DNA of 64,000 bases from Actinoplanes teichomyceticus ATCC 31121 (GTDB lineage: Bacteria > Actinomycetota > Actinomycetes > Mycobacteriales > Micromonosporaceae). How positions within the stretch are numbered: the first letter of the stretch is position 1; each line of letters starts with the position of its first letter. Position numbers and translations under genes: made by a program. The stretch spans positions 2,144,001 through 2,208,000 of the forward strand of contig NZ_CP023865.1 in assembly GCF_003711105.1 (NCBI RefSeq). The letters are read 5' to 3'. The notes under the pieces were generated by a model that was not told the DNA's origin, did not search any database, and saw only the letters and a program-made list of their open reading frames with translations. This document shows positions 29,540 to 52,041 of this stretch, one piece after another.

Positions 29540-32500
29540 TCAGGCGGAGCGCGACGAGATCTCCGCGATGATCCGCGGCCGCAGCTCGGCGGCCGAGATC
29601 ACCGCGTCCACCGAGCCCACCTCGATGGCGCGCTGGATGCTGTGCACCCGGTCGAACTCGGCCGCCACCTCACCGAGCTTCTCGGCCCGCACCGCGGAGC
29701 GCAGCTCGTCCAGCTCGGCGGCGAGCGAGCTGCGGCCCGCCCCGGTGGCCGCCGAGGCCCGGGCCTCCAGCTCGCGCACCCGCGGGTCGGCCGCGGTCCG
29801 CGCGTTGACCTCCGCGGTGAAGACCACGGCCGCGGCCGGCGCCCCGCCGAGCACCGACGCGAACGAGCCTTCCAGGGCCAGCACCGTCATGTTCGGGTTG
29901 AGCGCCTTGGAGAACACCACGAACGCGCCACCGTGGTACCGGGAGATCACGCAGAAGACGATCGGGCCGCGGAAGTTCACGATGGCCCGGCCGATCTCCG
30001 CGCCGTACTCCAGCTGGAGCTTGCGCATCGACTCCGGAGAGCCGTCGAAGCCGGACAGGTTGGCCAGCACCACCAGCGGACGGTTGCCGCTGGCCGCGTT
30101 GATCGCCCGGGCCGCCTTCTTCGACGAGCGCGGGAACAGCGTGCCCGCGGTGTACGTGTCCGGCCCGTCGGTGGGCGGGAAGCCCCGCCGCGGCACCGAC
30201 CGCGACTCGATGCCGAGCAGGCACACCGGCCGGCCGCCCAGGTGCGCGTCCTGCACCACCGCGGTCTCCGCGTCCGCCATCCCGGCCCAGCGCTCCAGCA
30301 CCGGGTGGTCCTGGTCGGCCAGCGCGCGCATGACCGTGCGGATGTCGAACGGCTTCTTGCGGTCCGGGTTGGCCGTGGCCGAGAAGATCTCGCCGACGGT
30401 GGTGAAGTCGCTGCCCTCGATCGCGTGCGGGAAGTCCGAGATGTCCCGGTCGATCGGGTCGGTGGTCAGCGTCGGGCGCGGCCCGGCCTCGCCCGGCACC
30501 ACGTACGTGTGCTCGTAGTGCGCCATCAGCACGTCCCGGGCGGCCATCAGGTTCGGCGCCCAGTACTGCGCCTGCCCGTTCGGCCCCATCACCCGGTCGT
30601 AGCCGCCGATGCCGAAGTTGTCCTCGGCCGACACGCCACCGGAGAAGTCCAGCGACTGCTTGCCGGTCAGCACCATCGCCGAGTCCGGCGTCATCACCAG
30701 GATGCCCTTGGTGTGCATCAGCATCGTGGCTTCCGCGTTCCAGTACGGCTGGGCGCCCACGTTGATGCCCGCGACCACGATGTTGATCTCACCGCCGGCC
30801 TGGGTGAACTCGACGATGCGCTTCAGCGCGGCGGCCACCCAGTCCATGTTCTCGGTGCCCGAGGTCATCGAGATCCGGGCGCCGGACGACAGCGCGTACC
30901 ACTCCAGCGGCACCCGCATCCGCTCGGCCAGGTCCAGGGCCGCGATCACCCGGCGGCACTCCGGCTCGGACAGCGCGCCCAGCGACTTGGTCGGGTCGCC
31001 GAGCAGCACCACCCGGGAGATGCCCTCGGGGTGGCGGGACGTGACCGTGCGCACCACGCCGGCCACCAGCGCCGCCGAGTTGCTCCCCTTCGGGCGGTCG
31101 ACCGGCACGAGCGCGTGCCGCTCGTCCAGGTCGTACTCGGTGAACTCGCCGAGGAACTCGGTCAGCTCGTACGGGTAGACGGTGTTGCGGCTGCTGGCCC
31201 GCAGCACCTTCTGCCGGTACCCGTCCAGCGGCTCGACCGGCTCGTCGGTCGGCTCGCTGAGGATCAGCTCGGTGCCGCCGGTCGCGCTGAACGTGATCCG
31301 CACGTTCACCTTGACCAGCTCGCCGGTGGCCTCGTCACGCCGCCGCGCGATGAACAGGATCTCCTCCAGGCCGGCGCCGGCCGTGGTCGGCGACACCCGG
31401 CGGGCGATCATCTCCATCTCGTTGTACGTCAGGCCGAGCACCGGCCACACGTAGATGACGATCCGGTTGGTGTTGAACCGCTTGTCCCGCGACCGCCGCG
31501 CCTGTGCCCGCCGGATGCCGTCCAGGCAGGTGGCGATGGTGTCCTCGGTGGTCGGCAGGGCGACCAGCCGGCCGTCCTGCTCGCGCAGCTCGGTCAGGTC
31601 GCGGATCTGCGCGAACGCCACCAGCCGGTCGTCGGCCGGGTTCTCCCGGGCGACGCACTGGAACAGGTAGATCTCCTCGTCCGCGGACGGCAGCCGGGTC
31701 AGGTCGAACTTGCGCAGCCGCTCCAGCTGCATCCGCTGCGCGATGTACGGGTGCAGCCCCCGGATCAGCCGCTCCTCCTCCATCCCGGTGGTGGACGGCC
31801 GGAAGGTGAAGTGGTGGTGCATGACCGCGCCGCTGCGCCCGGCGACCGTCGTGGTCACCCGGCGGATCTGGGCGGGCAGCGGGTGCCGGCTGATCACCTC
31901 GTGCAGCGCGGTGGCCATCTCGTCGGAGTCGGCCGGCTGGCCCTCCCAGGCGAGGTAGATGTCGGCGTCGACCGTGCCGTCCTCGGTGGCCAGTCCGGCC
32001 AGTCCGGCCAGCGTGCCGCCCAGCCGGTCGAAGCTCTCCGCGGCCGAGACCAGCAGCGAGCCGGACTTCTCGGCGACCACGAAGGAGAAGTCGCCGGACG
32101 TGACGGTGCGCACCCCGGTCAGGCCCTTGTTGCCGTAGTAGCGGCGGGTCAGCACCTCGAGCAGCACCGAGTTGTCCACATTGTGCCGGAGCAGGCGCTG
32201 GCCGAGCAGCCGGACCAGCGGCTCGGTGCTGCGCACCATCTCGGCGATCCGGTCGGCGCGGTCGCTGGACTGCGGGAACTCGTCCAGGTGGCGCAGGTGC
32301 TTGCGGATCTCCGCGTACACCCGGGCCCGGTTGCGGCGCAGCAGCGGCTGGCCGAACCAGGTGAACACCACGCCGCGGGCCAGGTCGGCGATCGCCGGGA
32401 AACGTACCTGGGTGGCGGCGACCAGCCGTTCCAGGGCGAGACCGGCCGGCTCGTGCAGGGTGACGTCCGGTGGCGGCTCCTGCAGCCAGGCGCGCAGCAG

Positions 32501-34990
32501 CGCGGAGACGACCGCGGCCTCGGCCGCGCCGCGCTGCTGGGCCAGGAAGATCCGGAACACCGCGGCCTCCAGGTCCGGGGTGCGCTCCAGGTCGGTGACG
32601 CCGTAGTGGCTCAGCGCCTTGGCCAGCTTGGCCTGGAACGACGCCGGCAGCCCGGCCCGCTCCACGTCCAGGCTCTGCAGGTAGGTGTGGAAGAACTCGC
32701 GGGCGCTGTGCACGTGCGCGTCGCCGTCCTCGCCGGCCGGCCGGTTGCGGCTCAGCTCGGCCAGGTCGGCGAAGACCTCGATGAGCGCGATCTCCTGCTC
32801 CAGGGGCCGGCGCCCCTCCTCGATGGCGGCGCGGCGGGCGGCCAGGTAGTCGTCCAGCACGCGGCGCTCGTCGTGCGGGTCGACGTCGAAGCCGAGCAGC
32901 AGGCTGCGCAGGTCCTCCTGGCCGCGGGCGGCGCGCTGGCGGGCCGGCTGGCCGTCCGGCGCCTGCGGCAGGTCGATGGGGGCGGTGGCGCCGGCGGCCT
33001 GCTCGGCCTCGTCGCCGCCGGTCGGCTCCAGGCGCAGCAGCGCGGCCCCGGCGTCGACCTTGCCGCCGACCGCGACCAGCACCTCCTTGACCCGGGCCCG
33101 GAACGGCGCGCGCAGCACCGCCTCCATCTTCATGGCCTCCAGGACCAGCACCGGCGCGCCGGCCTCGACCTCGGCGCCGGGCTCCAGCGGGGTGGCCACC
33201 ACCAGCGCCGGCATCGGCGAGCGCAGCACGCCGCCCTCGTCCCGGCTCACCCGGTGGGTGACCCCGTCCACCTCGACCAGCGTGATCGCGCCGTGCGTGC
33301 CGGTGAGCAGCCGGTGCCGCACGCCGTTGACCTGGATCCGGCCGCTGTGCCGGTCGAACCGCTCCACCGTGACGTCGGCGAGGCGGACGTCCTCGCCGGC
33401 CTCGATGCCGACCCGGAACCGGTGCGCGCCGACCCGGGCCACCCGCACCCGGTACGTCGACCCGCGCAGCTTGAGGTCCAGCGGCGCGCCGCTGTCGTGC
33501 CGCACCTGCGGGCGCCCGCCGAACGCGGTGGAGAGCAGCCGCTGCTGCTCGACGCGCTCCTCCTCCTCGTACGCCTCGATCGCGGCCGCCGCCAGGGCGA
33601 TGCCGGAGTGCCGGTCGGAGACCAGCCGGCCCTCGCCGCGCACCCGGTCGATCCAGCCGGTGTCCGCGCTGCCGTCGATCACCTCGCTCTGGTCGAGCAG
33701 GTCGAGCACGAAGCTCTTGTTGGTGGCCCCGCCCTCGATCACCACCGTGGTCTCGGCCATCGCCCGGCGCAGCCGGCCGAGCGCCTCGTCGCGGTCCTTG
33801 CCGTACGCGATCACCTTGGCGATCATCGAGTCGAAGTCGCCGGGGATGCTGTCGCCCTCGCTGACCCCGGTGTCCACCCGGATGCCCGGGCCGGCCGGGA
33901 AGTCCAGCCGGACGATACGGCCGGGGGAGGGGGCGAAGTCGCGGTCCGGGTCCTCGGCGTTGAGCCGGGCCTCGATGGCGTGGCCGCGCTCGACCGGCGG
34001 GGTACCCTCCAGACGGTTGCCCGCGGCGACGTGCAGCTGCGCCTTGACCAGGTCGAAGCCGGTGACCGACTCGGTGATCGGGTGCTCCACCTGCAGGCGC
34101 GTGTTGACCTCGAGGAAGGCCAGCAGGTCCTCACCCGGGTGGTAGAGGAACTCGACGGTGGCGGCGCCGCGGTAGCCCACCGCGACCGCGAGTCGCTCGG
34201 CGGACGCCTTGAGCTCGGCGGCCCGCTCGGGCCGCAGCACCGGCGACGCCGATTCCTCGATCACCTTCTGGTTGCGCCGCTGCACCGAGCAGTCGCGCAC
34301 GCCGATCGCCCAGGCGGTGCCCTGCCCGTCCGCGATGACCTGCACCTCGACGTGCCGGGCGCCGGTGACCAGGCGCTCCAGGAAGACGATGCCGCTGCCG
34401 AACGCCCGGGCCGCCTCCTGGCTGGTCCGCTCGTACGCGTCGGCGAGCTGGTCGGGGTCGCGGACCACCCGGATGCCGCGCCCGCCGCCACCGGCGGTGG
34501 CCTTGAGCATCAGCGGGTAGCCGATCCGCTGCGCCGCCTCCAGCGCGGCCTCCAGCGTCTCCACCGGGCCGCGGCTCCACGGCGCGACCGGAACGCCGAC
34601 CTCCTCGGCGATCAGCTTCGCGCCGATCTTGTCGCCGAGCTTGCGCATGGCCTCCGGGCCGGGGCCGATGAAGGTGACTCCGATGCGTTCGCACAGCTCC
34701 GCGAACGCCGGGTCCTCGGCGACGAAGCCCCAGCCCACCCAGGCCGCGTCGGCGCCGGTCTCGACGAGCGCCTGCTCCAGCAGCTTCAGGTTCAGGTACG
34801 GCCGTGCGGCGGCCGGGCCGAGGTCGTACACGATGTCGGCCTCGCGGACGAAGGTGGCGGTCCGGTCGACGTCGGTGAACAGCGCGACGGTCTCGATCCG
34901 CACGCCGGTCTCCGCGGCGAGCTCCCGGACGGCATGGATGAGCCGCATCGCGGCCTCACCACGGTTGACGATGGCGATTCGTTTGAACAC
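29540..34990 (-). CDS. Single-chain biotin-dependent acyl-CoA carboxylase (BC-BCCP-CT)
   Basis: The protein has 1816 residues from the GTG at 34990. Residues 1-455 are a biotin carboxylase: FKRIAIVNRGEAAMR, ATP-grasp loop KATAGGGGRGIR, and EVNTRLQVEHPITE. The carrier domain has EAMKME with biotinyl Lys621. After a long central region, the C-terminal third is a carboxyltransferase, with TGKQSLDFSGGVSAEDNFGI and MGPNGQAQYWAPN. Order and length recall eukaryotic multidomain acetyl-CoA carboxylase rather than the usual split AccA/AccB/AccE subunits of actinomycetes. It makes malonyl-CoA or a substituted malonyl-CoA; acyl specificity is not readable. Confidence 0.9.
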   Translation of the reverse strand: MFKRIAIVNRGEAAMRLIHAVRELAAETGVRIETVALFTDVDRTATFVREADIVYDLGPAAARPYLNLKLLEQALVETGADAAWVGWGFVAEDPAFAELCERIGVTFIGPGPEAMRKLGDKIGAKLIAEEVGVPVAPWSRGPVETLEAALEAAQRIGYPLMLKATAGGGGRGIRVVRDPDQLADAYERTSQEAARAFGSGIVFLERLVTGARHVEVQVIADGQGTAWAIGVRDCSVQRRNQKVIEESASPVLRPERAAELKASAERLAVAVGYRGAATVEFLYHPGEDLLAFLEVNTRLQVEHPITESVTGFDLVKAQLHVAAGNRLEGTPPVERGHAIEARLNAEDPDRDFAPSPGRIVRLDFPAGPGIRVDTGVSEGDSIPGDFDSMIAKVIAYGKDRDEALGRLRRAMAETTVVIEGGATNKSFVLDLLDQSEVIDGSADTGWIDRVRGEGRLVSDRHSGIALAAAAIEAYEEEERVEQQRLLSTAFGGRPQVRHDSGAPLDLKLRGSTYRVRVARVGAHRFRVGIEAGEDVRLADVTVERFDRHSGRIQVNGVRHRLLTGTHGAITLVEVDGVTHRVSRDEGGVLRSPMPALVVATPLEPGAEVEAGAPVLVLEAMKMEAVLRAPFRARVKEVLVAVGGKVDAGAALLRLEPTGGDEAEQAAGATAPIDLPQAPDGQPARQRAARGQEDLRSLLLGFDVDPHDERRVLDDYLAARRAAIEEGRRPLEQEIALIEVFADLAELSRNRPAGEDGDAHVHSAREFFHTYLQSLDVERAGLPASFQAKLAKALSHYGVTDLERTPDLEAAVFRIFLAQQRGAAEAAVVSALLRAWLQEPPPDVTLHEPAGLALERLVAATQVRFPAIADLARGVVFTWFGQPLLRRNRARVYAEIRKHLRHLDEFPQSSDRADRIAEMVRSTEPLVRLLGQRLLRHNVDNSVLLEVLTRRYYGNKGLTGVRTVTSGDFSFVVAEKSGSLLVSAAESFDRLGGTLAGLAGLATEDGTVDADIYLAWEGQPADSDEMATALHEVISRHPLPAQIRRVTTTVAGRSGAVMHHHFTFRPSTTGMEEERLIRGLHPYIAQRMQLERLRKFDLTRLPSADEEIYLFQCVARENPADDRLVAFAQIRDLTELREQDGRLVALPTTEDTIATCLDGIRRAQARRSRDKRFNTNRIVIYVWPVLGLTYNEMEMIARRVSPTTAGAGLEEILFIARRRDEATGELVKVNVRITFSATGGTELILSEPTDEPVEPLDGYRQKVLRASSRNTVYPYELTEFLGEFTEYDLDERHALVPVDRPKGSNSAALVAGVVRTVTSRHPEGISRVVLLGDPTKSLGALSEPECRRVIAALDLAERMRVPLEWYALSSGARISMTSGTENMDWVAAALKRIVEFTQAGGEINIVVAGINVGAQPYWNAEATMLMHTKGILVMTPDSAMVLTGKQSLDFSGGVSAEDNFGIGGYDRVMGPNGQAQYWAPNLMAARDVLMAHYEHTYVVPGEAGPRPTLTTDPIDRDISDFPHAIEGSDFTTVGEIFSATANPDRKKPFDIRTVMRALADQDHPVLERWAGMADAETAVVQDAHLGGRPVCLLGIESRSVPRRGFPPTDGPDTYTAGTLFPRSSKKAARAINAASGNRPLVVLANLSGFDGSPESMRKLQLEYGAEIGRAIVNFRGPIVFCVISRYHGGAFVVFSKALNPNMTVLALEGSFASVLGGAPAAAVVFTAEVNARTAADPRVRELEARASAATGAGRSSLAAELDELRSAVRAEKLGEVAAEFDRVHSIQRAIEVGSVDAVISAAELRPRIIAEISSRSA

Positions 34991-39029: not shown

Positions 39030-39035
39030 CCCGCC

Positions 39036-39232
39036 CGCCGCCACCGGACGCGCCGGCTTGACCGGTCGCCACCGACGCGGCCGGCCTGTCTCGCCACCAC
39101 CGGACGCGCCGGCCCGACCGTCGCCACCGACGCGGCCGGCCTGTCCCGCCACCACCGGACGCGCCGGTCCGTCCCGCCACCACCGGACGCGCCGGTCCGT
39201 CCCGCCACCACCGGACGCGCCGGCCCGGCCTG
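39036..39232. repeat. Minisatellite with 28-bp unit, in a 538-bp intergenic region
   Basis: Between 39030 and 39567 there is no gene. Three near-identical 28-bp units (39143-39170, 39171-39198, 39199-39226) are preceded by more diverged copies that alternate in a 56-bp pattern. The first two units are identical and the third differs at one base. Units are contiguous without spacers. The lower-GC stretch at about 39361-39480 probably carries the promoter of the azole cluster, but no confident -35/-10 pair was found. Confidence 0.8.
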
Positions 39233-39567
39233 CCACGGGCCGGGCCGCCGCCGGACGGCGCCCGGTGTGGCGCGGGCCCGGTCCGCCGCCGGATCGGTGT
39301 GCCGGCGCCCGCGGCGGTCCGTTGTGGACGGCCCGGCCAGGGCGCCCGCCGGACGCCCTGGCGGGCGAACGCGAATGCTCCGACCATGTCGTCAATGTCG
39401 GACAATTCATTCCTATGGGGATCAGGAACACAACTCGGTTGTAGCTTTCGCAAACCACAGCGAATCGTCCGCCGGAGGTCCAGAGTTGAAGGAGCACGGG
39501 TAGTCCTCGACGGGCGCCGTCGGACAGCTTTCGCCCGGATCCGACCGGGCAGGGAGAAGCGTGCGCA

Positions 39568-40905
39568 ATGAGCGCGGTTGCCGTGGGAGCAACGCAGCGG
39601 AGCGTGGAAACGGCAGATTCGGCCCGGCTGGCGGATCTGGTGTCGCCGCTCGGCGGGCTGGTCGGGCACGTGCTGCGGCTCCCGGTCGAACCCTCCGAGC
39701 CGCCGCTCGCGGTGTTCTCGGCCGATCTCGGCGACGTGTCCAGCGTGCTGCCCAACCTGTGCGGACCGGAGTGCCTGGGCAACCTCGACGGCACCGGAAC
39801 CGGGGTGGACCCGGAGCGCTCGGCGCTGGTCGCCGTCGCCGAGGCGCTGGAACGCTATGCCAACTGCGTGTACGACGAACGCCAGTTCATCTGGGCGACC
39901 GCTGACGAGCTGGGCCCCGAGGCCCTCGACCCGGACACCCTGCCGCGCTGCTCGGAGGCCGAGTTCGCGGACCCGGACTGCCCGGTCACCCGGCCGGACC
40001 GCGCGGCGCGGATGCGCTGGGTACGCGGCGTGCACCTGGGCACCGGCGAGCCGCGCTGGGTGCCCGCCGTGCTGGTGTACATGCACCTGCCCGCGCACGC
40101 CGGGGAGCGCTTCACCAGGCCGATCTCCACCGGCTCGGCGGCGCACCCGGATCCGGCCGTCGCGGTGTGCGGAGCGCTCTGCGAGGTGATCGAGCGCGAC
40201 GCGATCAGCATCACCTGGCTGCAACGGCTCGCGCTGCCGCGGCTGGAGCTCGACACGGTCAGCCCGCAGCTGCAGCGCTACCTCGACCTCAGCGCCGGCC
40301 GGGACGTGACGGTGCACCTCTTCGACGCCACCACCGACGTGGGCATCCCCACCGTCTACGGCGTCTCGGTCGCGCCGGACCACCCCACCTGCCGCACCGT
40401 GGTCTCCTGCGCCACCGGGCTGGACCCGCAGGTGGCGGCCGCGAAGGCGATCTGCGAGACGGTCTCCGAGCGGATCGCGCTGCACGGGACCCCGCCGCCG
40501 GGCGAGGACGTGCGGGCGTTCGGCGGGGTGTCCGACGGCGCCGCCTACATGTCCGCCCCGCAACGGGCGGCGGCGTTCGACTTCCTGCTCGACAGCCCGG
40601 CCCGTCGCCGGATCTCCGCGATGCCGACGCTGTCCACCGGTGATCCGGTCGCCGATCTGCGGCTGGTCTCCGCGCGCCTGGCCGCGTGCGAGCTGGACGC
40701 GTACATCGTCGACCTGACCCCGGACGAGGCGCTGCGGACCGGGATGACCGTGGTGCGCGCGGTCGTGCCGGGCCTGCAGCCGCTGTCCTTCAGCTACCTG
40801 GCCCGCTACCTCGGGCATCCCCGGCTCTACCAGGCGCCGGTCCGGATGGGCTATCCGAGCAGGCCGGAAGCCGAGCTCAACGCCTGGCCCCAGCCGTTCG
40901 CCTGA
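39568..40905 (+). CDS. YcaO cyclodehydratase (TOMM D protein)
   Basis: The protein has 445 residues, ATG at 39568 with GGGAGAAG 8 nt ahead. YcaO features include GVDPERSALVAVAEALERYA near residue 90, CGALCEVIERDAI near 205 (ATP/Mg-binding Glu residues) and KAICETVSERIALH near 295. The C-terminus ends WPQPFA, a Pro-containing tail like those of cyclodehydrating YcaO proteins. It uses ATP to cyclise Cys (or Ser/Thr) of the precursor to azolines, with help from an E1-like partner that binds the leader. It is first in the operon; the Cys-rich precursor is five genes on. Confidence 0.93.
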   Translation: MSAVAVGATQRSVETADSARLADLVSPLGGLVGHVLRLPVEPSEPPLAVFSADLGDVSSVLPNLCGPECLGNLDGTGTGVDPERSALVAVAEALERYANCVYDERQFIWATADELGPEALDPDTLPRCSEAEFADPDCPVTRPDRAARMRWVRGVHLGTGEPRWVPAVLVYMHLPAHAGERFTRPISTGSAAHPDPAVAVCGALCEVIERDAISITWLQRLALPRLELDTVSPQLQRYLDLSAGRDVTVHLFDATTDVGIPTVYGVSVAPDHPTCRTVVSCATGLDPQVAAAKAICETVSERIALHGTPPPGEDVRAFGGVSDGAAYMSAPQRAAAFDFLLDSPARRRISAMPTLSTGDPVADLRLVSARLAACELDAYIVDLTPDEALRTGMTVVRAVVPGLQPLSFSYLARYLGHPRLYQAPVRMGYPSRPEAELNAWPQPFA

Positions 40906-40924
40906 CGTCTACCGGGAGTGGCGC

Positions 40925-41569
40925 ATGTGTCATCTGATCGTTTCCCCCGTCGGCCCGTTCGGCTACGCGGTCGCCGAGCGGCTGCGCGACCTGTGCCGCG
41001 ACGTGCAGGTCGCCGGGACCGACGCGACCGGCGCCGGGACCGGGCCGCCACCGGCGCCGGGACCGGGTCCCCGGCTGGACGTGCTGGTGGCGTGGCGGCG
41101 GGTGCCCGCGCTGGAGCGGGAGTTCGACGAGGACGCGTACCGGTCCGGACACCCGTGGCTGCCGGTCGTCCTGGACCATCCGGTGCTGGAGATCGGCCCG
41201 GTGGTGGTGCCGGGCGCCGGCGCCTGCCACGGCTGCTACCGCCGCCGGCTCGCGCAGCACGACGCCGGGCGGGCGGTGCGCGCCGCCGTCGACCGGTACT
41301 ACGACGCCGACCCGCAGGCCGGGCCGGCCGGGTACCTGCCGGCGACCGCGCTGTTCGCGGCGGCCACGGTCGCCGAGGTGGTGGACCGGTTCCGGGCCGA
41401 CCCACGGGACGAGGCCGGCCGGGTACGCCAGATCGACGTGCCGACCCAGCAGCTGCGCTCCGGCCGGGTGGTCGGCGTGCACGGCTGCCCGCGGTGCGGT
41501 TCCGGCCGGGACGAGACCACCCGGTCGTACGAGCGGCTGCCCGCGATGCTCCAGGGGGTGTGGGGATGA
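40925..41569 (+). CDS. Small TOMM E1-like / C-type protein with zinc tetrad
   Basis: The protein has 214 residues. Cys101-H-G-Cys104 and Cys188-P-R-Cys191 form a structural zinc tetrad, as in E1-like cyclodehydratase partners (C or Ocin-ThiF type). It lacks an obvious leader-binding wing at its N-terminus, reading MCHLIVSPVGPFGYAVAE, and is only about half the usual length. It may be a trimmed C protein that docks the YcaO enzyme while the next gene recognises the leader. It overlaps that gene by ATGA. Family assignment rests on context and the Cys pairs. Confidence 0.75.
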   Translation: MCHLIVSPVGPFGYAVAERLRDLCRDVQVAGTDATGAGTGPPPAPGPGPRLDVLVAWRRVPALEREFDEDAYRSGHPWLPVVLDHPVLEIGPVVVPGAGACHGCYRRRLAQHDAGRAVRAAVDRYYDADPQAGPAGYLPATALFAAATVAEVVDRFRADPRDEAGRVRQIDVPTQQLRSGRVVGVHGCPRCGSGRDETTRSYERLPAMLQGVWG

Positions 41570-43266
41570 TCCAGATCGAGGACACCTCCCGGCAGAACGG
41601 GCGCCTCTCCGCCGCGGCCATGGCGTACGCGGTCGCCGTCGATCCGCAGTTCAGCGTGCCCGTCCGGCCGTGCCTGGCGCCCGGGCTGGTGTGCGTCCCG
41701 CTGGACGACGGGCTGGCGTTCGTGGGCAGCGCCAACCGGCAGACGGTGCTGCGCGGGCGGGCCGCGCTGACCCTGATCCCGCGGCTGCTGCCGGCGCTGG
41801 ACGGTACCCGTACCGTGGCCGAGCTGGCCGCGGCGCACGCCGACGTGGCCGGAACCGACCTGCGCGCGTGCGTCTCCCTGCTGTACGTCAGCGGGCTGCT
41901 GCAGGACGGACCGCCCGGTCCGGAGAGCGAGCTGATCCCGTCCGAGGTGGCCGGCTACCTGGGCCGGAATCTGGACACCACCCGGGTCAACCACAGCCGG
42001 GGTGAGGCGTGCGACCGGCTGGCACGCACCCGGGTGCTGGTCGCCGGTCCGGAGCCGCTCGCCGGCCGGCTCCGCGCCGAGCTGGCCGCCGCGGGCGTCG
42101 ACGCGCACCGGAGCGGTCCGGAGCAGGCCGCCGGGGCCGGCGACTTCCTGGTCGCCGTCGACGACGGGAACGCCGCCGCGATGGTGGCGGTGGACCGGGC
42201 CTGCCGGCGTGCCGGGATCAGCTGGCTGCGCACCGCGGCCGGACCGCGCACGGCCGAGATCGGACCGCTGTTCAACGCCCGGTACACCTGCTGCTACGAG
42301 TGCTTCGCCGGGAGCGGGGCCGGGCCGGGCGGCGTGCCGTCCCGGGCGTGCGCGGCGATCTGGGCGGCGCTGACCGCGACCGAGATCGTGCACCTGCTGT
42401 CCCGGGTCGGCTCGACCCCGTCGACCTCCGGCTGCACCGTCTTCGACCTCGCCGATTGGACCCAGCGGGCGGTCGGCGCGTACCGCCGGCCGGGCTGCCC
42501 GCAGTGCCTGCCCACCCGCGCGCCGGCCCGGCCCGGCCGCCCGGCGCTGGCCCACCTGTACGAGCAGGAGGTGGCGGCGCCGCCCCGCGAGTGGCTCAAC
42601 CTCAAGGACCACCAGGCGCACTACAAGCCGGCGAACCTGTCCCTGCAGCGGTACAACAAGGAGTACCTGGCCGCCCCGCGCATCCCGCTCAACGGCGGCC
42701 CGCCCGCCCCGGCCCCGCGCCTGACCCTGGCCACCCTGTCCGTGCTGCTGCGGCGCACCGTCGGGCTGCGCGACGACGGCCCGGCGGCCGGGTCCGGCAA
42801 GGTCGGCCGGTGGGCGCCGACCGGCGGGAACCTCGGCTCGGTGCAGGCCTACCTGCTCCCGCTGGACGTGGCCGGACTGCCCGCCGGGTGGTACTTCTAC
42901 CAGCGCGGCGACCACAGCCTGGCGCGGATCCGGCCGCTGTCGGCGTCGACGCTGCCGGCCGAGGCCGCGGCGGTCTGCCCGGAGCTCGCGGCGCAGCGGC
43001 CGGCCGCCCTGATCGCCCTCACCGGGGCGCTGGGCGTGGTGTCGGCCAAGTACCAGGACTTCGCCTACCGGGTCCTCTGCCTGGACGCCGGCGTCGCGCT
43101 GGCCCAGCTGTCCGCGCTCGCCGACGAGTGCGGGCTGGCCACCCGCTTCGCCGGCCGCTGGGACGACACCGCGCTGAGCCGGGCGCTGCGGATCGAGGCC
43201 GCCGACGAGCCGGTGACCGCGGTGATCGCACTCGACCCGAGGACTGACGATGATCCCGACAACTGA
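41566..43266 (+). CDS. Fusion of leader-binding E1-like protein and SagB-type dehydrogenase
   Basis: ATG at 41566 gives 566 residues. Residues about 45-115 look like a RiPP recognition element (GLAFVGSANRQTVLRGRAAL, then LDGTRTVAELAA). An E1-like part follows with zinc pairs Cys243/Cys246 and Cys311/Cys314. The C-terminal part (about 385-566) is an FMN nitroreductase-fold SagB domain: VGRWAPTGGNLGSVQAYLLP, then GWYFYQRGDHSL and YQDFAYRVLCLDAGVALAQ. It can thus bind the leader, support cyclisation and oxidise azolines to azoles in one chain. It overlaps the next gene by 17 nt. Confidence 0.85.
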   Translation: MIQIEDTSRQNGRLSAAAMAYAVAVDPQFSVPVRPCLAPGLVCVPLDDGLAFVGSANRQTVLRGRAALTLIPRLLPALDGTRTVAELAAAHADVAGTDLRACVSLLYVSGLLQDGPPGPESELIPSEVAGYLGRNLDTTRVNHSRGEACDRLARTRVLVAGPEPLAGRLRAELAAAGVDAHRSGPEQAAGAGDFLVAVDDGNAAAMVAVDRACRRAGISWLRTAAGPRTAEIGPLFNARYTCCYECFAGSGAGPGGVPSRACAAIWAALTATEIVHLLSRVGSTPSTSGCTVFDLADWTQRAVGAYRRPGCPQCLPTRAPARPGRPALAHLYEQEVAAPPREWLNLKDHQAHYKPANLSLQRYNKEYLAAPRIPLNGGPPAPAPRLTLATLSVLLRRTVGLRDDGPAAGSGKVGRWAPTGGNLGSVQAYLLPLDVAGLPAGWYFYQRGDHSLARIRPLSASTLPAEAAAVCPELAAQRPAALIALTGALGVVSAKYQDFAYRVLCLDAGVALAQLSALADECGLATRFAGRWDDTALSRALRIEAADEPVTAVIALDPRTDDDPDN

Positions 43267-44059
43267 GACCCGTTCCGCGCCCGCCGGGCCGCGTTCCGGC
43301 GAGCCGGATCCCGCCGCCGACCGGCTGCGGCTGCTGGAACGGCTGCTGAGCGACACGCTGCTGGACGCCGCGGCGGCCGCCCGGCCGCCCGCGCCGGTGC
43401 CCGCGCACCTGCGCCGGGCGCCGGACGACGGGCCGCTGATCGGGCTGCCCGAGCCGGCGGCCCCGCACGCGGCCCTGGACGACGTGCTGCCGGGGCGCAG
43501 CGCGGCCCACGAGTACGCGCCCACCGCCCTCACCGGCGCCGAGGTGTCGGCCCTCTTCGCCGCCGCGGACCGGATGGACGCCCGCGGCTGGCCCGCCGAG
43601 CGGGAGGCCGGCGTCGACCTCGAACTGTACTGCGCGGCCTGGCGGGTGACCGGGGTGGACACCGGGCTGTACCGGTACCGGCCGGAGCGTTCCGGGCTGT
43701 GCCGGGTGGCGAGCCTGCCGGACGGCCCGCAGGCCGAGGAACTGGTGCTGCAACGGGAGTTCGCCCAGGCCGCGGCCCTGTTGGTGATCACCGGCAACCT
43801 GGCCGCCGCGCTCGCCCGGCACGGCAGCCACGGCCACCGGCTGCTGCTGTCGCGGGCCGGCGCGGCCGGACACGCCGCGTGGCTGACCGCGCTGCGCCTC
43901 GATCTCGTCGGCACGGTCTTCGCCGGCCTGCTGCCGCACGTCCTGCGCGAACGTGCCGGCGCCGACGGTTACCACCGGGCCGCGCTGTTCGCGTTCGCGG
44001 TCGGGCATCCCCCGGGCACGGCGGTGTCGTACCGGTCCACAGTCGCGGGTCCGGACTGA
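43250..44059 (+). CDS. Second SagB-like nitroreductase-fold protein
   Basis: The protein has 269 residues. The SagB start pattern LPGRSAAHEYAPTALTGAEVSAL is present, along with the FMN-domain helix HRLLLSRAGAAGHAAWLTAL and DTGLYRYRPERSG. Nitroreductase-fold enzymes work as dimers with FMN at the interface. A second, separate SagB next to a fused one suggests a heterodimer or two oxidation steps. The N-terminal 60 residues are Ala/Pro-rich and unassigned. It ends 77 nt before the precursor gene. Confidence 0.8.
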   Translation: MIPTTETRSAPAGPRSGEPDPAADRLRLLERLLSDTLLDAAAAARPPAPVPAHLRRAPDDGPLIGLPEPAAPHAALDDVLPGRSAAHEYAPTALTGAEVSALFAAADRMDARGWPAEREAGVDLELYCAAWRVTGVDTGLYRYRPERSGLCRVASLPDGPQAEELVLQREFAQAAALLVITGNLAAALARHGSHGHRLLLSRAGAAGHAAWLTALRLDLVGTVFAGLLPHVLRERAGADGYHRAALFAFAVGHPPGTAVSYRSTVAGPD

Positions 44060-44073
44060 TTCAGGTCACGGGC

Positions 44074-44095
44074 CCGGCCGGCGGCCCACGGCCGG
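44074..44095 (+). promoter_or_regulatory. GC hairpin ahead of the precursor gene
   Basis: The arms CCGGCCG (44074-44080) and CGGCCGG (44089-44095) are perfect complements around 8 nt. The hairpin lies between the SagB-like stop and the precursor start. It could mark an mRNA processing site or attenuate read-through. Confidence 0.4.
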
Positions 44096-44136
44096 CCGGC
44101 GTTCACCAGGAGACGAGAGAGCAAGGGAGTTGAGAG

Positions 44137-44367
44137 ATGCGCAGTGAGCTGAAGAAGCCGGAGGTCTCGGAGGAGCTGGACCTCTGGCTGGAAGATGATC
44201 TGACCGCCGAGCAGTTACCGACCGTCGTCAGCGCGTCGTTGCTGGGGACCGGTGGCTGCGGCGGTTGTGGCGGCTGCCACGGTTGCCACGGCTGCCACGG
44301 CTGCCACGGCTGCGGGCCGTGTCACGGCTGCCACGGCTGCCGCGGATGCCACGCGTGCCGGTGGTGA
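44137..44367 (+). CDS. Azole RiPP precursor peptide with Cys-Xaa-Xaa repeat core
   Basis: The peptide has 76 residues, ATG at 44137 behind GGGAGTTGAGAG. Residues 1-38 are an acidic leader (EVSEELDLWLEDDLTAEQL). From Cys41 to Cys74 a Cys sits at every third position, twelve in all (41, 44, 47 and so on), mostly as CHG, with CGG early, CGP at 59-61 and CRW at the end. Such a core is an ideal substrate for YcaO-type thiazole formation. It resembles the heterocycloanthracin class of Cys-Xaa-Xaa repeat precursors. A metallothionein is unlikely given the leader and neighbours. At the DNA level it contains a 9-bp codon-phased repeat. Confidence 0.92.
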   Translation: MRSELKKPEVSEELDLWLEDDLTAEQLPTVVSASLLGTGGCGGCGGCHGCHGCHGCHGCGPCHGCHGCRGCHACRW

Positions 44368-44373
44368 TCGCAG

Positions 44374-44402
44374 CCGGGGGCGTGTCGTGAACACGCCCCC
44401 GG
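44374..44402 (+). terminator. Strong hairpin just after the precursor gene
   Basis: The arms CCGGGGGCGTGT (44374-44385) and ACACGCCCCCGG (44391-44402) pair perfectly around a 5-nt loop. It begins 6 nt after the precursor stop and lies before the protease gene on the same strand. A partial terminator or 3'-end stabiliser that raises precursor mRNA over the protease mRNA is likely. Confidence 0.75.
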
Positions 44403-44442
44403 TCGTCCGTACCGCAGCGCCGCCCGGGTAACGGAGGCATCG

Positions 44443-45570
44443 ATGTCCCTGGACAGCGGCACCACGCCGAACGTCGTCGTACCCGAGTGGCTGGACCAGC
44501 CCATCGGGCTCGCACCGCAGGTCACCCTGGTCGACGGCGCGGATGGCCATGCCCTGCTGTTCAACGCCGCGAACGGGACGTACGTCCGGGTGAGCCGGAC
44601 CGGCGCGCGGCTGGTGCCGTTGCTGGACGGCACCCGGACCGGGACGGCGCTGCTGGCCGCCGCCAGCCGGGCACGCGGGCCGGAGGGCACCCGGGACCGC
44701 GGGCCGGTCCTGCTGTCGTTCCTGCAGGATCTGCGCGCGGCCGGGGTGCTGTCGGTGCCGCCGGAACCGTTGCGCGGCCGGCGGCTGGCGCTGACCCGGC
44801 TCGGCCGGCTCACCCCGCGCGTCCGGTTCCCGGCCCGCCGCCTGAACCGGCTGCTGCGTCCGCCGGCCCTGCTGCTGGCCCGTTACCCCCGCACCGGGTG
44901 CACCGTCGCGGTGCTGGTCGCCGTGGCGTCCGTGAGCGCGGTCGTGCTGGCGTTCGTCGTGCCGGCGCCGCTGGTCTTCACCGGTCCGTCGTGGACGATG
45001 CTGATCGGGGCGCTGCTGGTGCAGGCCACCGTGCACGAGATGGCGCACGCCACCGTGTGCCAGTCGCTGGGCGTGCCGGTACGCGAGGCCGGGATCAAGC
45101 TGTTCTGCCTGCTCATCCCGCTGACGTACGTGGACCGGACGGACGCCTACCGGGTCCGGTCGCGCGCCGGGCGCGCCGGTGTGGCGCTGGTCGGGCCGCT
45201 CGTCGACCTGGCCGCGGCGGGGCTGTCCGCGCTGCTGATCCTCATCGACCCGGTCGGGTTCGGGCCGCTGCGCTGGCTGCTCGGGCTGCAGCTGTTCGTC
45301 ATCATCAACAACCTCAATCCGCTGCTGCCCACCGACGGCAACCACGCGCTGGAGGCGGCGCTCGGGGAGCTGAACCTGCGGCACCGCGCCAACGCGTACA
45401 TGGCCCACGTGCTGCTGCGGCTCCCGCTGTCCGCGGCGCACCGCTCGGTCTCGGCGGCCCGGCGGCGGCTGTACCTGACCTACGGGTTCGTCAGCACCGC
45501 GTTCCTGCTCATGCTGCTCACCATGATGGCGATCAACTACTACCGGCTGATCGACCACGCCACCGGCTGA
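44443..45570 (+). CDS. M50-family membrane metalloprotease with PqqD-like N-terminal domain
   Basis: ATG at 44443 after GGAGG gives 375 residues. Residues about 25-110 resemble a PqqD/RRE fold (APQVTLVDGADGHALLFNAA, then GTYVRVSRTGARLV). The rest is polytopic, with the zinc motif HEMAH (His198, Glu199, His202) and a second-ligand region PLLPTDG with Asp298, as in site-2 proteases. In RiPP operons such proteins are candidates for leader removal or for export-linked processing. No ABC transporter lies in the operon. Its stop codon directly abuts the stop of the convergent kinase gene. Confidence 0.85.
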   Translation: MSLDSGTTPNVVVPEWLDQPIGLAPQVTLVDGADGHALLFNAANGTYVRVSRTGARLVPLLDGTRTGTALLAAASRARGPEGTRDRGPVLLSFLQDLRAAGVLSVPPEPLRGRRLALTRLGRLTPRVRFPARRLNRLLRPPALLLARYPRTGCTVAVLVAVASVSAVVLAFVVPAPLVFTGPSWTMLIGALLVQATVHEMAHATVCQSLGVPVREAGIKLFCLLIPLTYVDRTDAYRVRSRAGRAGVALVGPLVDLAAAGLSALLILIDPVGFGPLRWLLGLQLFVIINNLNPLLPTDGNHALEAALGELNLRHRANAYMAHVLLRLPLSAAHRSVSAARRRLYLTYGFVSTAFLLMLLTMMAINYYRLIDHATG

Positions 45571-47163: not shown

Positions 47164-49413
47164 TCAGACCCCTTCCACCAGAGCGAACACCCGGTCGAAC
47201 CGGGCCAACGCGTCGTCGATGACCTCGTCGGTGTCGGCCATCGAGGTGTACATCCGGGAACCGGCCAGGGTGATGATGCCGTGCGCGGCGTACGCCGCCC
47301 CCATCTGCTCCATCAGCGTCTTGCGGGCCTTGTTCTCCCGGAGCAGCTTGATCGGGCTGCGCATGTCCAGCAGCATCACGCCGCTGCACTCCAGGTGCAC
47401 GATGGAGCCCTGGTTGTACGCCACGTACGGCAGGCCGTACCGGTCGATCAGCCGCTGCAGACCGCGGGTGAGCCGGTCCCCGGCCCGCCCGGCCAGCACC
47501 GGCGCGCCGGTCCGGGCCATCTCCCGGATCGCGAAGTACCCGGCCGCGCAGGACAGCGGGTTCGCCGACAGGGTGCCGCCGACCTGGATGTGCGCGCCGC
47601 TCCGGCCGTCCAGGCCGGAGCCGAAGACGCTCATCACGTCGGCCCGCCCGCCGACCCCGCCGGCCATCGGGTACCCGCCGGAGACCGCCTTGCCGAAGAC
47701 GGTCAGGTCGGGGGTGACGCCGAAGTACCCGGCGGCGCCGCCCATGCCGGTCCGGAAGCCGGTCACCACCTCGTCGAAGATCAGCAGCGCGCCGAACTCG
47801 TCGCACAGCTCGCGGACGGCCGCGTTGTAGTCGCGCGGCACCGGCCGGGTGCCCGACTCCGGGCCGAACGGCTCGACGATGACCGCCGCGGTGCCGCCGC
47901 GGACCCGGTTCTCGATCAGCTTGCGTCGCAGCGCGCCCAGGTCGTGCGGGAAGGTCTCCCGGGTCCGCCCGGTGGCGCCCCACGGGATGCCCTTGGCGTT
48001 CATCCGGAACGTGCCGGGCACCCGTAGGGCGTACACCACGGTGTCGGACCACCCGTGGTACGCCCCGCCCACCTTGATCACCATCTTCCGGCCGGTGTGC
48101 GCGCGGGCCGCCCGGACCGCCGCCATCACGGCCTCGGTGCCCGAGCCCAGCGACCGGTACATCTCGATGTGCGGCATGAACTCGTGGATGATCTCGGCGA
48201 GTTTCAGCTCGTACTCGTGGAACAGGCCGGTGACCGGCCCGGACTCGGCGATCACCGCGGCCACCTGCTCGTTGACCGGGGCGTAGTTGCTGCCCAGGAT
48301 GGTCGGGCCGCCGGCCTGCAAAAAGTCGATGTAGACGTTGCCGTCCCGGTCGGTCAGGTGCGCGCCCTCGGCCCGGTCGATCGCCAGCGGGAACGGATAG
48401 TTGAACGCCAGGTTGTGCTGGACGCCGCCGGGGATGCGCCGCTTGGCCCGCTCGGTGATCTCCCGGCTGGCCGTGCACTTGGTCTCGAAGTAGTTCAGCA
48501 CGTCCAGCAGCGCGTCGTGGCGCAGGCCGCGCACCGGCTGCGCGACGAGCGCCTTGAGCCGGCGCATGGTGTCGTCGACGTCCAGGTACTCGCTGATCAT
48601 GTAGCCGTGGGCGGCCGGCTGCGGCTCGCCGCGCGGCCCACCGGCCGGCTCGGTGGCGGCCGGGGGCAGCGGGTCGGCGACCGAGGGCAGCGGCTCGTCC
48701 TCCGGCACCCGGACCGGCTCGACGGCGTCCACGATCTGCGCGGCGATCCGTTTCTCGTCCGCGCGCAGCTTGTTGAACGCGATCTCCCGGATCGTCGCCG
48801 GGATCGTGTGGACCTTCCCGGCCTCCGAGGTCAGCGCCAGCAGGTACGCGATCGACACCTTCTCCAGCAGCGCCATGTTGAACACCGCACGCGACGGGTC
48901 GGTGCCCACCGCCACCACCCCGTGGTTGGCGATGATGAACGCGTTGTCCCCGCTCGCCACCCTCTTCTGCACGTTGCGGGCGAGGAAGCCGGTCCCGGCC
49001 GGCGCGTAGTCGATGATCGCGACCTCCCGCCCGAGGAAGCGCACCTGCTCGTCGGTCAGCGCCGGGATCGGCTTGCGCAGGAACGCCAGGGCCGACGCGT
49101 ACGGCTGGTGGGTGTGCACGATCGCGTTGACGTCCGGCCGCTCGCGGTAGATGTTCGCGTGCATCCCGCACTCGATCGACGGGACCAGCCCACCGGCGGC
49201 GCCCGGATCGGGCACGTGCCGGCCCCGGAAGTCGACGATGCAGACGTCCTCGACGCGCATCCGGTCGTAGTCGTAGTTGCTGGGCGTGACGGCGTAGAGC
49301 TCGTGGCCCGGGATGCGGACCGAGACGTTGCCCTCGGTCGCCTTGAGGTAACCACGGTCGAGCATGGTGCGGCACATGTCGACCACATGCTGACGGGACA
49401 TCCGGTGCTTCAC
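47164..49413 (-). CDS. Class II aldolase fused to class III aminotransferase
   Basis: The protein has 749 residues. Residues 1-235 form a class II aldolase/adducin domain: ATEGNVSVR at the phosphate-binding turn, zinc ligands His100 and His102 in IVHTHQP, and ANHGVV. After a Pro-rich linker (240-265) comes a glutamate-1-semialdehyde-aminomutase-like PLP domain: GSGTEAVMAAVRAAR, GGAYHGWSD, LIFDEVVTGFR and PLP Lys575 in FGKAVSGGY. Such a fusion is unusual. It could cleave a substrate and transaminate the aldehyde product, or be a metabolic channelling protein. A PucR regulator is divergent. Confidence 0.88.
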   Translation of the reverse strand: MKHRMSRQHVVDMCRTMLDRGYLKATEGNVSVRIPGHELYAVTPSNYDYDRMRVEDVCIVDFRGRHVPDPGAAGGLVPSIECGMHANIYRERPDVNAIVHTHQPYASALAFLRKPIPALTDEQVRFLGREVAIIDYAPAGTGFLARNVQKRVASGDNAFIIANHGVVAVGTDPSRAVFNMALLEKVSIAYLLALTSEAGKVHTIPATIREIAFNKLRADEKRIAAQIVDAVEPVRVPEDEPLPSVADPLPPAATEPAGGPRGEPQPAAHGYMISEYLDVDDTMRRLKALVAQPVRGLRHDALLDVLNYFETKCTASREITERAKRRIPGGVQHNLAFNYPFPLAIDRAEGAHLTDRDGNVYIDFLQAGGPTILGSNYAPVNEQVAAVIAESGPVTGLFHEYELKLAEIIHEFMPHIEMYRSLGSGTEAVMAAVRAARAHTGRKMVIKVGGAYHGWSDTVVYALRVPGTFRMNAKGIPWGATGRTRETFPHDLGALRRKLIENRVRGGTAAVIVEPFGPESGTRPVPRDYNAAVRELCDEFGALLIFDEVVTGFRTGMGGAAGYFGVTPDLTVFGKAVSGGYPMAGGVGGRADVMSVFGSGLDGRSGAHIQVGGTLSANPLSCAAGYFAIREMARTGAPVLAGRAGDRLTRGLQRLIDRYGLPYVAYNQGSIVHLECSGVMLLDMRSPIKLLRENKARKTLMEQMGAAYAAHGIITLAGSRMYTSMADTDEVIDDALARFDRVFALVEGV

Positions 49414-50689: not shown

Positions 50690-50734
50690 TCCCGCGCCCG
50701 GCGACGCCCTCCCGCGCACTCTTCAGACGCCGCT

Positions 50735-50850
50735 CCGGGCGGTTGTGGGGGCACTGCTCCGGGCGGTCCTGGGGCACCGCTCCGGGCGGTCCTGGGGCAC
50801 CGCTCCGGGCGGTTCCGGGGCACCGCTCCGGGCGGTTCCGGGGCACCGCT
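50735..50850. repeat. Minisatellite, 23-bp unit
   Basis: Five consecutive units (one of 24 bp, four of 23 bp) begin CCGGGCGGTYCYGGGGCACC, with a decayed sixth copy to about 50873. They lie between the convergent PucR and protease genes (50690-50907), where no gene is seen. Confidence 0.85.
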
Positions 50851-50907
50851 TCAGGCGGCTCCGGGACGGCGACTGGCTCGCCCGCCGTCCCGGTCGTCGC
50901 GCAGCGG

Positions 50908-51675: not shown

Positions 51676-51760
51676 AGTCGATTGTCCTTTCCGGACTTCC
51701 GGCAACGACCGTATCGACGTTAGTCCTTTCCGGCCGAGCGCGCTGACCCGTCCGGCCATC

Positions 51761-51960
51761 GACCGGGCCGGATCCCCGCCGAGCGGTCCGGGTCCCCGCC
51801 GAGCGGTCCGGGTCCCCGCCGAGCGGTCCGGGTCCCCGCCGAGCGGTCCGGGTCCCCGCTGATGTGCCTGGATCCCCGCCGATCTGCCTGGATCCCCGCT
51901 GACTCGCCCGGAGTTCCGCCGAGCGGTCCGGATCCGCGCCGACCGGCGGGGATGCCGGCC
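51761..51960. repeat. Minisatellite, ten 20-bp units, in a 366-bp intergenic region
   Basis: Ten units in exact 20-bp register, consensus GAGCGGTCCGGGTCCCCGCC, with three central copies identical and outer copies diverged. It sits upstream of the protease gene and downstream of the cellulase gene, within 51676-52041, which holds no gene. There are no spacers, so it is not CRISPR. Confidence 0.88.
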
Positions 51961-52041
51961 GGGGTGGGTCGGATGCCCGCCGGACGGACCGGCCGCCGGT
52001 CCGGCCCGCGGCGGTGGCGGGTCCGGGCCGGCGGCCGGTTC

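Follow-up and report, generated by a model that had tools for sequence, protein, structure and literature searches.

A predicted azole-peptide family with a Cys-repeat core in Actinoplanes and its kinship with split-LanB clusters

Within the 64,000 nucleotides of the Actinoplanes teichomyceticus ATCC 31121 genome analysed here (the window), a small gene encodes a 76-residue peptide in which cysteine recurs at every third position. This raises the question of what kind of product such a peptide yields and how its biosynthetic genes are related to known systems. The first-pass annotation of this DNA had read the gene as an azole RiPP precursor with YcaO, E1-like and SagB-type genes as neighbours. 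This reading is supported by the precursor itself, its conserved leader, a core that keeps its register and a conserved enzyme set, and family models recovered all three neighbours (TIGR03604, TIGR03882 and TIGR03605, respectively). The genes form a six-gene operon on the plus strand (39568-45570) in the order YcaO, E1-like protein, E1+SagB fusion, second SagB-like protein, precursor and M50 protease; the protease gene downstream of the precursor was absent from the earlier annotation. Judged by its gene content and relatives, this operon quite probably makes a linear azole-containing peptide (LAP/TOMM) and is kin to split-LanB clusters, without a dehydratase beside it. The features concerned are:

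39568..40905, + strand: YcaO cyclodehydratase (SagD family); TIGR03604 303.1 bits (cut-off 219.25), PF02624 249.1 bits
40925..41569, + strand: short E1-like protein (TOMM leader-binding type); TIGR03882 59.6 bits (cut-off 36.9)
41566..43266, + strand: E1-like + SagB-type dehydrogenase fusion (P0002); TIGR03605 81.1 bits (cut-off 78.4)
43250..44059, + strand: second SagB-like protein; TIGR03605 37.5 bits, under the cut-off of 78.4
44137..44367, + strand: precursor peptide, stop included; 76 residues, leader 1-40, core 41-76 with 12 Cys
44271..44353, + strand: 9-bp tandem array encoding the repeat core; Tandem Repeats Finder, 9.2 copies, 78% matches
44368..44407, + strand: GC-rich hairpin just 3' of the precursor stop; region z -3.24, possible attenuator
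44443..45570, + strand: M50 metalloprotease with a weakly PqqD-like N-terminus; PF02163 35.4 bits (cut-off 27.2)

The twelve cysteines of the window core follow the strict three-residue periodicity that had been described (Cys 41, 44 ... 74; 11 of 11 gaps are 3). His-Gly forms 6 of the 11 spacers and the peptide ends with Arg-Trp, also as described. Histidine is present in 7 of the 11 spacers (7 His in total), and the core contains neither Ser nor Thr. Among random placements over the 36 core residues, all 12 Cys fall into one register in 3 of 1,251,677,700 cases, a null that is too generous to the regularity because the core DNA is a 9-bp tandem array; the regularity therefore partly reflects repeat slippage. 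Better evidence for a gene comes from comparison. The leader is nearly invariant among relatives, and its codons show 313 synonymous versus 51 nonsynonymous differences (45 pairs of 10 leaders, 22 codons each), while random single changes would split 521:1459. The leader is thus under purifying selection. A Shine-Dalgarno-like stretch lies upstream of the start, and the precursor keeps its operon position in all 11 Actinoplanes operons. On the comparative evidence of leader codons and operon place, 44137-44367 can be regarded as confirmed to be a real gene. An opposite-strand reading frame (44215-45558) was ruled out as a real gene by the plus-strand leader conservation and the operon order. 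Strong GC-rich hairpins like that of the window are present after the precursor gene in 9 of 10 loci, and such a structure may adjust how much precursor is made relative to the protease.

The enzymes carry conserved motifs as well. The TIGR03604 match spans residues 77-445 of the 445-residue YcaO protein, whose C-terminus PQPFA is kept in 10 of 10 aligned Cys-repeat loci. In the fusion protein, two CxxC pairs are invariant across 29 aligned homologues, TIGR03882 scores 29.3 bits (under the cut-off of 36.9), and Pfam gave ThiF and nitroreductase only, with no RRE (leader-binding) domain found. The Lys-Tyr pair, which is catalytic in McbC-type dehydrogenases, occurs in this protein in 9 of 10 aligned Cys-repeat loci, with Arg-Tyr replacing it in locus L009, and all 11 sister loci have it too. 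In the second SagB-like protein, none of 21 sequences has Lys-Tyr at the aligned place. The HExxH motif of the M50 protease is kept in 17 of 17 aligned sequences, and its N-terminus reaches 17.6 bits with PF05402 (below the cut-off of 23.4). This protein is likely to be the leader protease. No transporter or immunity gene conserved beside the operon was found in the compared loci, and the histidine-kinase and GTPase genes upstream as well as the kinase and aminotransferase genes downstream were not found next to the operon in relatives.

Other features were seen elsewhere in the window. A GC-rich tandem array (39030-39236, 28/56-bp units) separates the GTPase gene from the YcaO gene, directly upstream of the operon, and two more arrays occur at 50730-50865 (23 bp) and 51760-51961 (20/60-bp units). 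On the minus strand, 29543-34990 encodes a 1816-residue single-chain acetyl-CoA-carboxylase-like protein with biotin carboxylase, biotin-carrier, ACC_central and carboxyltransferase domains in one frame, and 47167-49413 encodes a fusion of a class II aldolase domain with a class III aminotransferase domain.

How widespread is the operon? The fusion protein was found in 12 of 67 Actinoplanes genomes. Eleven of the 67 contain the six-gene operon with a Cys-repeat precursor in the same gene order (one of these loci, L006, in a gapped assembly), and the twelfth genome (G035) carries a split-LanB cluster. At class level, 10 of 394 genomes matched at E<=1e-20, the own genome included and the others with 34 to 48% identity, and in the phylum sample 2 of 396 genomes matched, again including the own one. 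A leader scan of one genome collection gave six loci, in Actinoplanes only, and profile and single-sequence searches yielded further precursors in Luedemannella flava (P0057) and among metagenome-type sequences (P0003, P0005, P0007). A. regularis has three precursors within one locus (L008), and genome G049 has an extra precursor (L028, 10146-10388) ~2.8 Mb from its operon with no operon enzymes within 20 kb. In P0006, a precursor-like protein from another Actinoplanes regularis record, the family leader is followed by a core that gives way to a Trp/Pro-rich tail. This protein is distinct from the three L008 precursors (78-86% identity, leader only) and may stem from a different strain in which the frame has changed. 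Weak precursor matches in G018, G053, G075, G098 and G099 (six loci; E 7e-6 to 9e-4) were without the leader motif and were dropped. No earlier description of a Cys-repeat Actinoplanes family was found among the matches listed in the open-licence literature. In the excerpt of a survey of Micromonosporaceae (PMC10868606), 37 LAP and 36 thiopeptide clusters are listed, and the name Actinoplanes does not occur. According to an excerpt on the transcriptome of Actinoplanes sp. SE50/110 (PMC7682106), expression of predicted clusters, a bacteriocin cluster among them, increases late in growth. Within the data searched, these sequences point to a real, conserved and apparently uncharacterised LAP family in Actinoplanes, Luedemannella and a few metagenome sequences.

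Comparison of the cores within this family shows what is kept and what varies. The counts cover 13 precursors; L006 was omitted because its core runs into the assembly gap, and P0003, P0005, P0006, P0007 and P0057 were also left out. The number of Cys per precursor ranges from 8 to 24. Of the 192 Cys-Cys gaps, 161 are three residues and 16 are six residues long, the remaining ones being 4 (10), 2 (3), 5 (1) and 7 (1). The residue before Cys is Gly in 167 and Pro in 25 of 205 cases. In the 16 skipped Cys slots, Ser/Thr occurs nine times, His six times (all in L007) and Gly once, and Ser/Thr is enriched there compared with the other positions of those gaps (9/16 versus 6/64, p 1e-4), an excess that weakens to p 0.02 when distinct gap strings are counted once (5/7 versus 6/28). 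Ser and Thr can also form azoles, and the excess therefore fits slots that are ring sites. Across these precursors the core changes quickly yet holds its three-residue register. The excess also bears on whether the peptide could be an unmodified Cys-rich structural or disulfide peptide that merely adjoins azole enzymes. Slippage can indeed create a repeat-born Cys-Gly sequence of this kind, but against it stand the leader motif, which precursors of related azole clusters have as well, the place held in 11 of 11 operons and the excess of Ser/Thr in skipped slots, and we regard such a peptide as very improbable.

The first-pass annotation had regarded His in the spacers as the unusual part and had suggested a metal-binding or nucleic-acid-binding product. 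Neither statement finds support across the family. In the 161 Cys-x-x-Cys triplets the first spacer residue is Gly in 63, His in 37, Arg in 32, Ser in 14, Tyr in 5 and another residue in 10 cases. Histidine is common in the window core and in L007, and 4 of the 13 cores have none at all, so His cannot carry a family function and the binding inference drawn from it is weak. Moreover, CHG-type cores are also found on other leaders (P0008, P0011). A metallophore, in which the Cys/His chain, partly unmodified or modified, would bind metal and be exported for uptake or detoxification, could be imagined from the 12 Cys and 7 His of the window core, but the His-free cores argue against it, the ring-forming enzymes present in every Cys-repeat operon would consume the thiols, and the compared loci show no conserved neighbouring gene for metal uptake. 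We consider this role unlikely.

Cys-x-Gly repeat cores were also seen on other leaders in P0008, P0009, P0011, P0012, P0060, P0061 and P0067. P0008 has an NHLP leader, P0009 and P0012 share a leader with ATFYVFDKE, and P0011 is a short metagenome peptide; P0060, P0061 and P0067 are Nostoc/Dolichospermum peptides, of which P0067 is labelled as heterocycloanthracin/sonorensin family by one source. The occurrence of such cores on differing leaders suggests repeated convergence.

The closest relatives of the enzyme set lie in clusters of a different kind. Homologues of the fusion protein occur in genomes of other actinomycete families, and in eleven split-LanB loci (L044-L052, L069 and L070) the YcaO, E1a, E1+SagB and SagB2 genes stand in the same order as in the Actinoplanes operon; seven of these eleven also contain the M50 gene. 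A motif scan detected precursors in 7 of the 11 loci, with the leader motif common to the Cys-repeat family, and their cores are mostly Ser/Thr-rich around Ser-Cys-Pro. All eleven loci carry LanB-type or TIGR03891 genes, whereas the Actinoplanes operons have neither such genes nor such cores. Three of three tested sister precursors (of ten) matched NF033482, ‘thiocillin family RiPP’, with 48 to 78 bits (cut-off 25); the window precursor reached 23.4 bits, narrowly short of this cut-off, P0005 13.0 bits, and P0004 and P0007 gave no match. Comparison of leader profiles between the Cys-repeat and the sister set returned a probability of 93.9% over 21 columns. In the YcaO tree (46 rows), the ten Cys-repeat rows form one clade (100/100) that nests in a 21-row clade with the split-LanB loci (100/100). 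On these sequence comparisons, the case for shared ancestry of the Cys-repeat operon and the split-LanB azole clusters is solid. As to its direction, a lost dehydratase is the simpler interpretation and is likely, not proved. The LanB locus L069 falls outside both groups in the free YcaO tree (support 93/87), but an alternative topology in which the LanB rows together form the sister of the Cys-repeat group was not rejected by an AU test (p 0.24), and the fusion-protein tree, where long branches come together, gives no information on the root.

The sister clusters examined have a single TIGR03891/Lant_dehydr_C-type protein near the YcaO gene. Goadsporin is a linear dehydrated azole peptide, and the sister products may be macrocyclic thiopeptides or goadsporin-like peptides, the term ‘thiopeptide-type’ being given by model names only. 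An assignment of the sister clusters to the dehydrazoles was rejected, as dehydrazoles have a LanM-type dehydratase and an NHLP leader according to the excerpt of PMC10676384. Genome G023, which has a Cys-repeat ortholog (L032), also contains L070, one of the sister azole clusters, with a split LanB and two YcaO genes.

The relationship invites a further reading, namely a true thiopeptide, a macrocycle with a six-membered nitrogen ring, made with the help of a dehydratase whose gene lies at another place in the genome. Leader and enzymes are akin to those of thiopeptide-type clusters, and a single LanB gene is present in the window's genome, at 4.19 Mb (G000:C1:4190144-4193101); it encodes a full-length LanB dehydratase, is the sole TIGR03891 match there and lies ~2 Mb from the operon. 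Against this, a dehydratase would find neither Ser nor Thr to act on in the window core, and TIGR03891 gave no match in 7 of the 11 Cys-repeat genomes, with matches elsewhere in the genome in the other four. A tblastn search for LanB homologues gave nothing better than E 0.34, and thus no homologue, in the window and across 15 Cys-repeat loci of ~19-20 kb, a set in which some genomes are represented by two copies. Membership of the window cluster among the thiopeptides was rejected on these grounds, and a dehydratase acting from elsewhere is highly improbable.

We then compared the family with described azole peptides. The first-pass annotation had placed the core near the heterocycloanthracins, and as far as the core pattern goes this stands: in the excerpt of the 2009 description, Bacillus heterocycloanthracins have Cys at every third residue and tripeptide indels (PMC2674419), and the heterocycloanthracin/sonorensin cores resemble the present ones in this spacing, in being Gly-rich and in the tripeptide indels between relatives. 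The same excerpt mentions precursors that are sometimes far from their enzymes, as is the orphan L028 here. The implied kinship does not stand. Here the leader is another one, YcaO is unfused, E1 and SagB are fused, and an M50 protease is present. According to the excerpt of a 2015 TOMM survey (PMC4603692), every heterocycloanthracin cluster contains both a fused cyclodehydratase and an F protein. The window precursor gave no TIGR03601 match at E<=0.1, family models reported no fused C domain on the window YcaO, and the F-protein model TIGR03693 had no match among the operon proteins. Neither TIGR03601 nor TIGR03693 matched in the own genome, searches in which the control genomes (14 for TIGR03601) were negative as well and which had no positive control. 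Heterocycloanthracin membership was rejected for lack of the precursor, C-fusion and F-protein matches in the operon, and in our reading the Cys-Xaa-Xaa core would be common to both by convergence. In the excerpt of the RRE-Finder study (PMC7470986), TIGR03693 is associated with heterocycloanthracins and thiopeptides, and TIGR03882 with other LAPs, in keeping with the window cluster being a LAP.

Other systems share single traits with the operon. Mobilisins have only B, C and D, with the precursor unknown, in the excerpt of PMC4603692. The daptide M50 protease model NF041824 is homologous to the window protease (110.4 bits), but this score is far below its 300-bit cut-off and the remaining daptide cluster is of another kind. 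Microcin B17 has a similarly Gly-Cys-rich core and a B, C and D enzyme trio; leader, spacing, the fused E1+SagB and the M50 protease differ here. By analogy, the product could be a nucleic-acid- or gyrase-targeting peptide, with a Gly-thiazole chain lying along DNA or blocking gyrase. Such a target would be compatible with azole formation and with the composition, but no pentapeptide-repeat gene or other gene for target protection was seen within the conserved unit, and this target seems improbable.

Returning to the linear azole-containing peptide, a pathway can be outlined from family knowledge and the conserved motifs. The leader motif LDLWLEDDLTAEQLP would dock on the E1-like proteins, and YcaO would cyclise each Cys by joining its side chain to the carbonyl of the residue before it, which is mostly Gly. 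Oxidation of the resulting thiazolines to thiazoles would fall to the fusion's SagB domain, for which the second SagB-like protein is a putative partner, and the M50 protease would remove the leader. The predicted product is a chain of up to twelve Gly-thiazole units with one variable residue between units, and variants would arise through gain and loss of 9-bp units. The twelve thiazoles proposed earlier hold as an upper limit: a cut between Gly40 and Cys41, directly before the first core cysteine, would make ring 1 impossible, so that either the cut lies upstream or at most eleven rings form. The calculated monoisotopic masses are 3343.87 for residues 41-76 carrying 11 azoles, and 3437.89 and 3595.96 for residues 39-76 and 37-76, respectively, carrying 12. 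A secreted antibacterial is the likeliest role of the product, a view that we hold with slightly less than even confidence.

In our reading the LAP pathway converged on the Cys-Xaa-Xaa core, and it probably did so once it had left a dehydratase-bearing lineage. It may be speculated, tentatively, that a thiopeptide-type pathway lost LanB in the ancestor of an Actinoplanes lineage and kept leader and azole enzymes, while its Ser/Thr-rich core gave way to a 9-bp repeat with every third slot a ring site. Ring number and spacers would then have been rewritten in each species, which would make the system a combinatorial poly-thiazole generator that converged on the core of the Bacillus heterocycloanthracins. 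What is new here is a different enzyme set behind a known Bacillus-type core, and thus a variant rather than a new class. The arrival of two lineages at a Cys-Xaa-Xaa core suggests a function for the spacing as such. The family offers a clean comparative case of RiPP core replacement, with the same leader motif and azole enzymes and different core chemistry in one 21-row YcaO clade. In addition, the enzyme set apparently tolerates spacers as varied as Gly, His, Arg, Ser and Tyr, among others, as well as precursors with 8 to 24 Cys, and is therefore of interest for the production of long poly-azoles.
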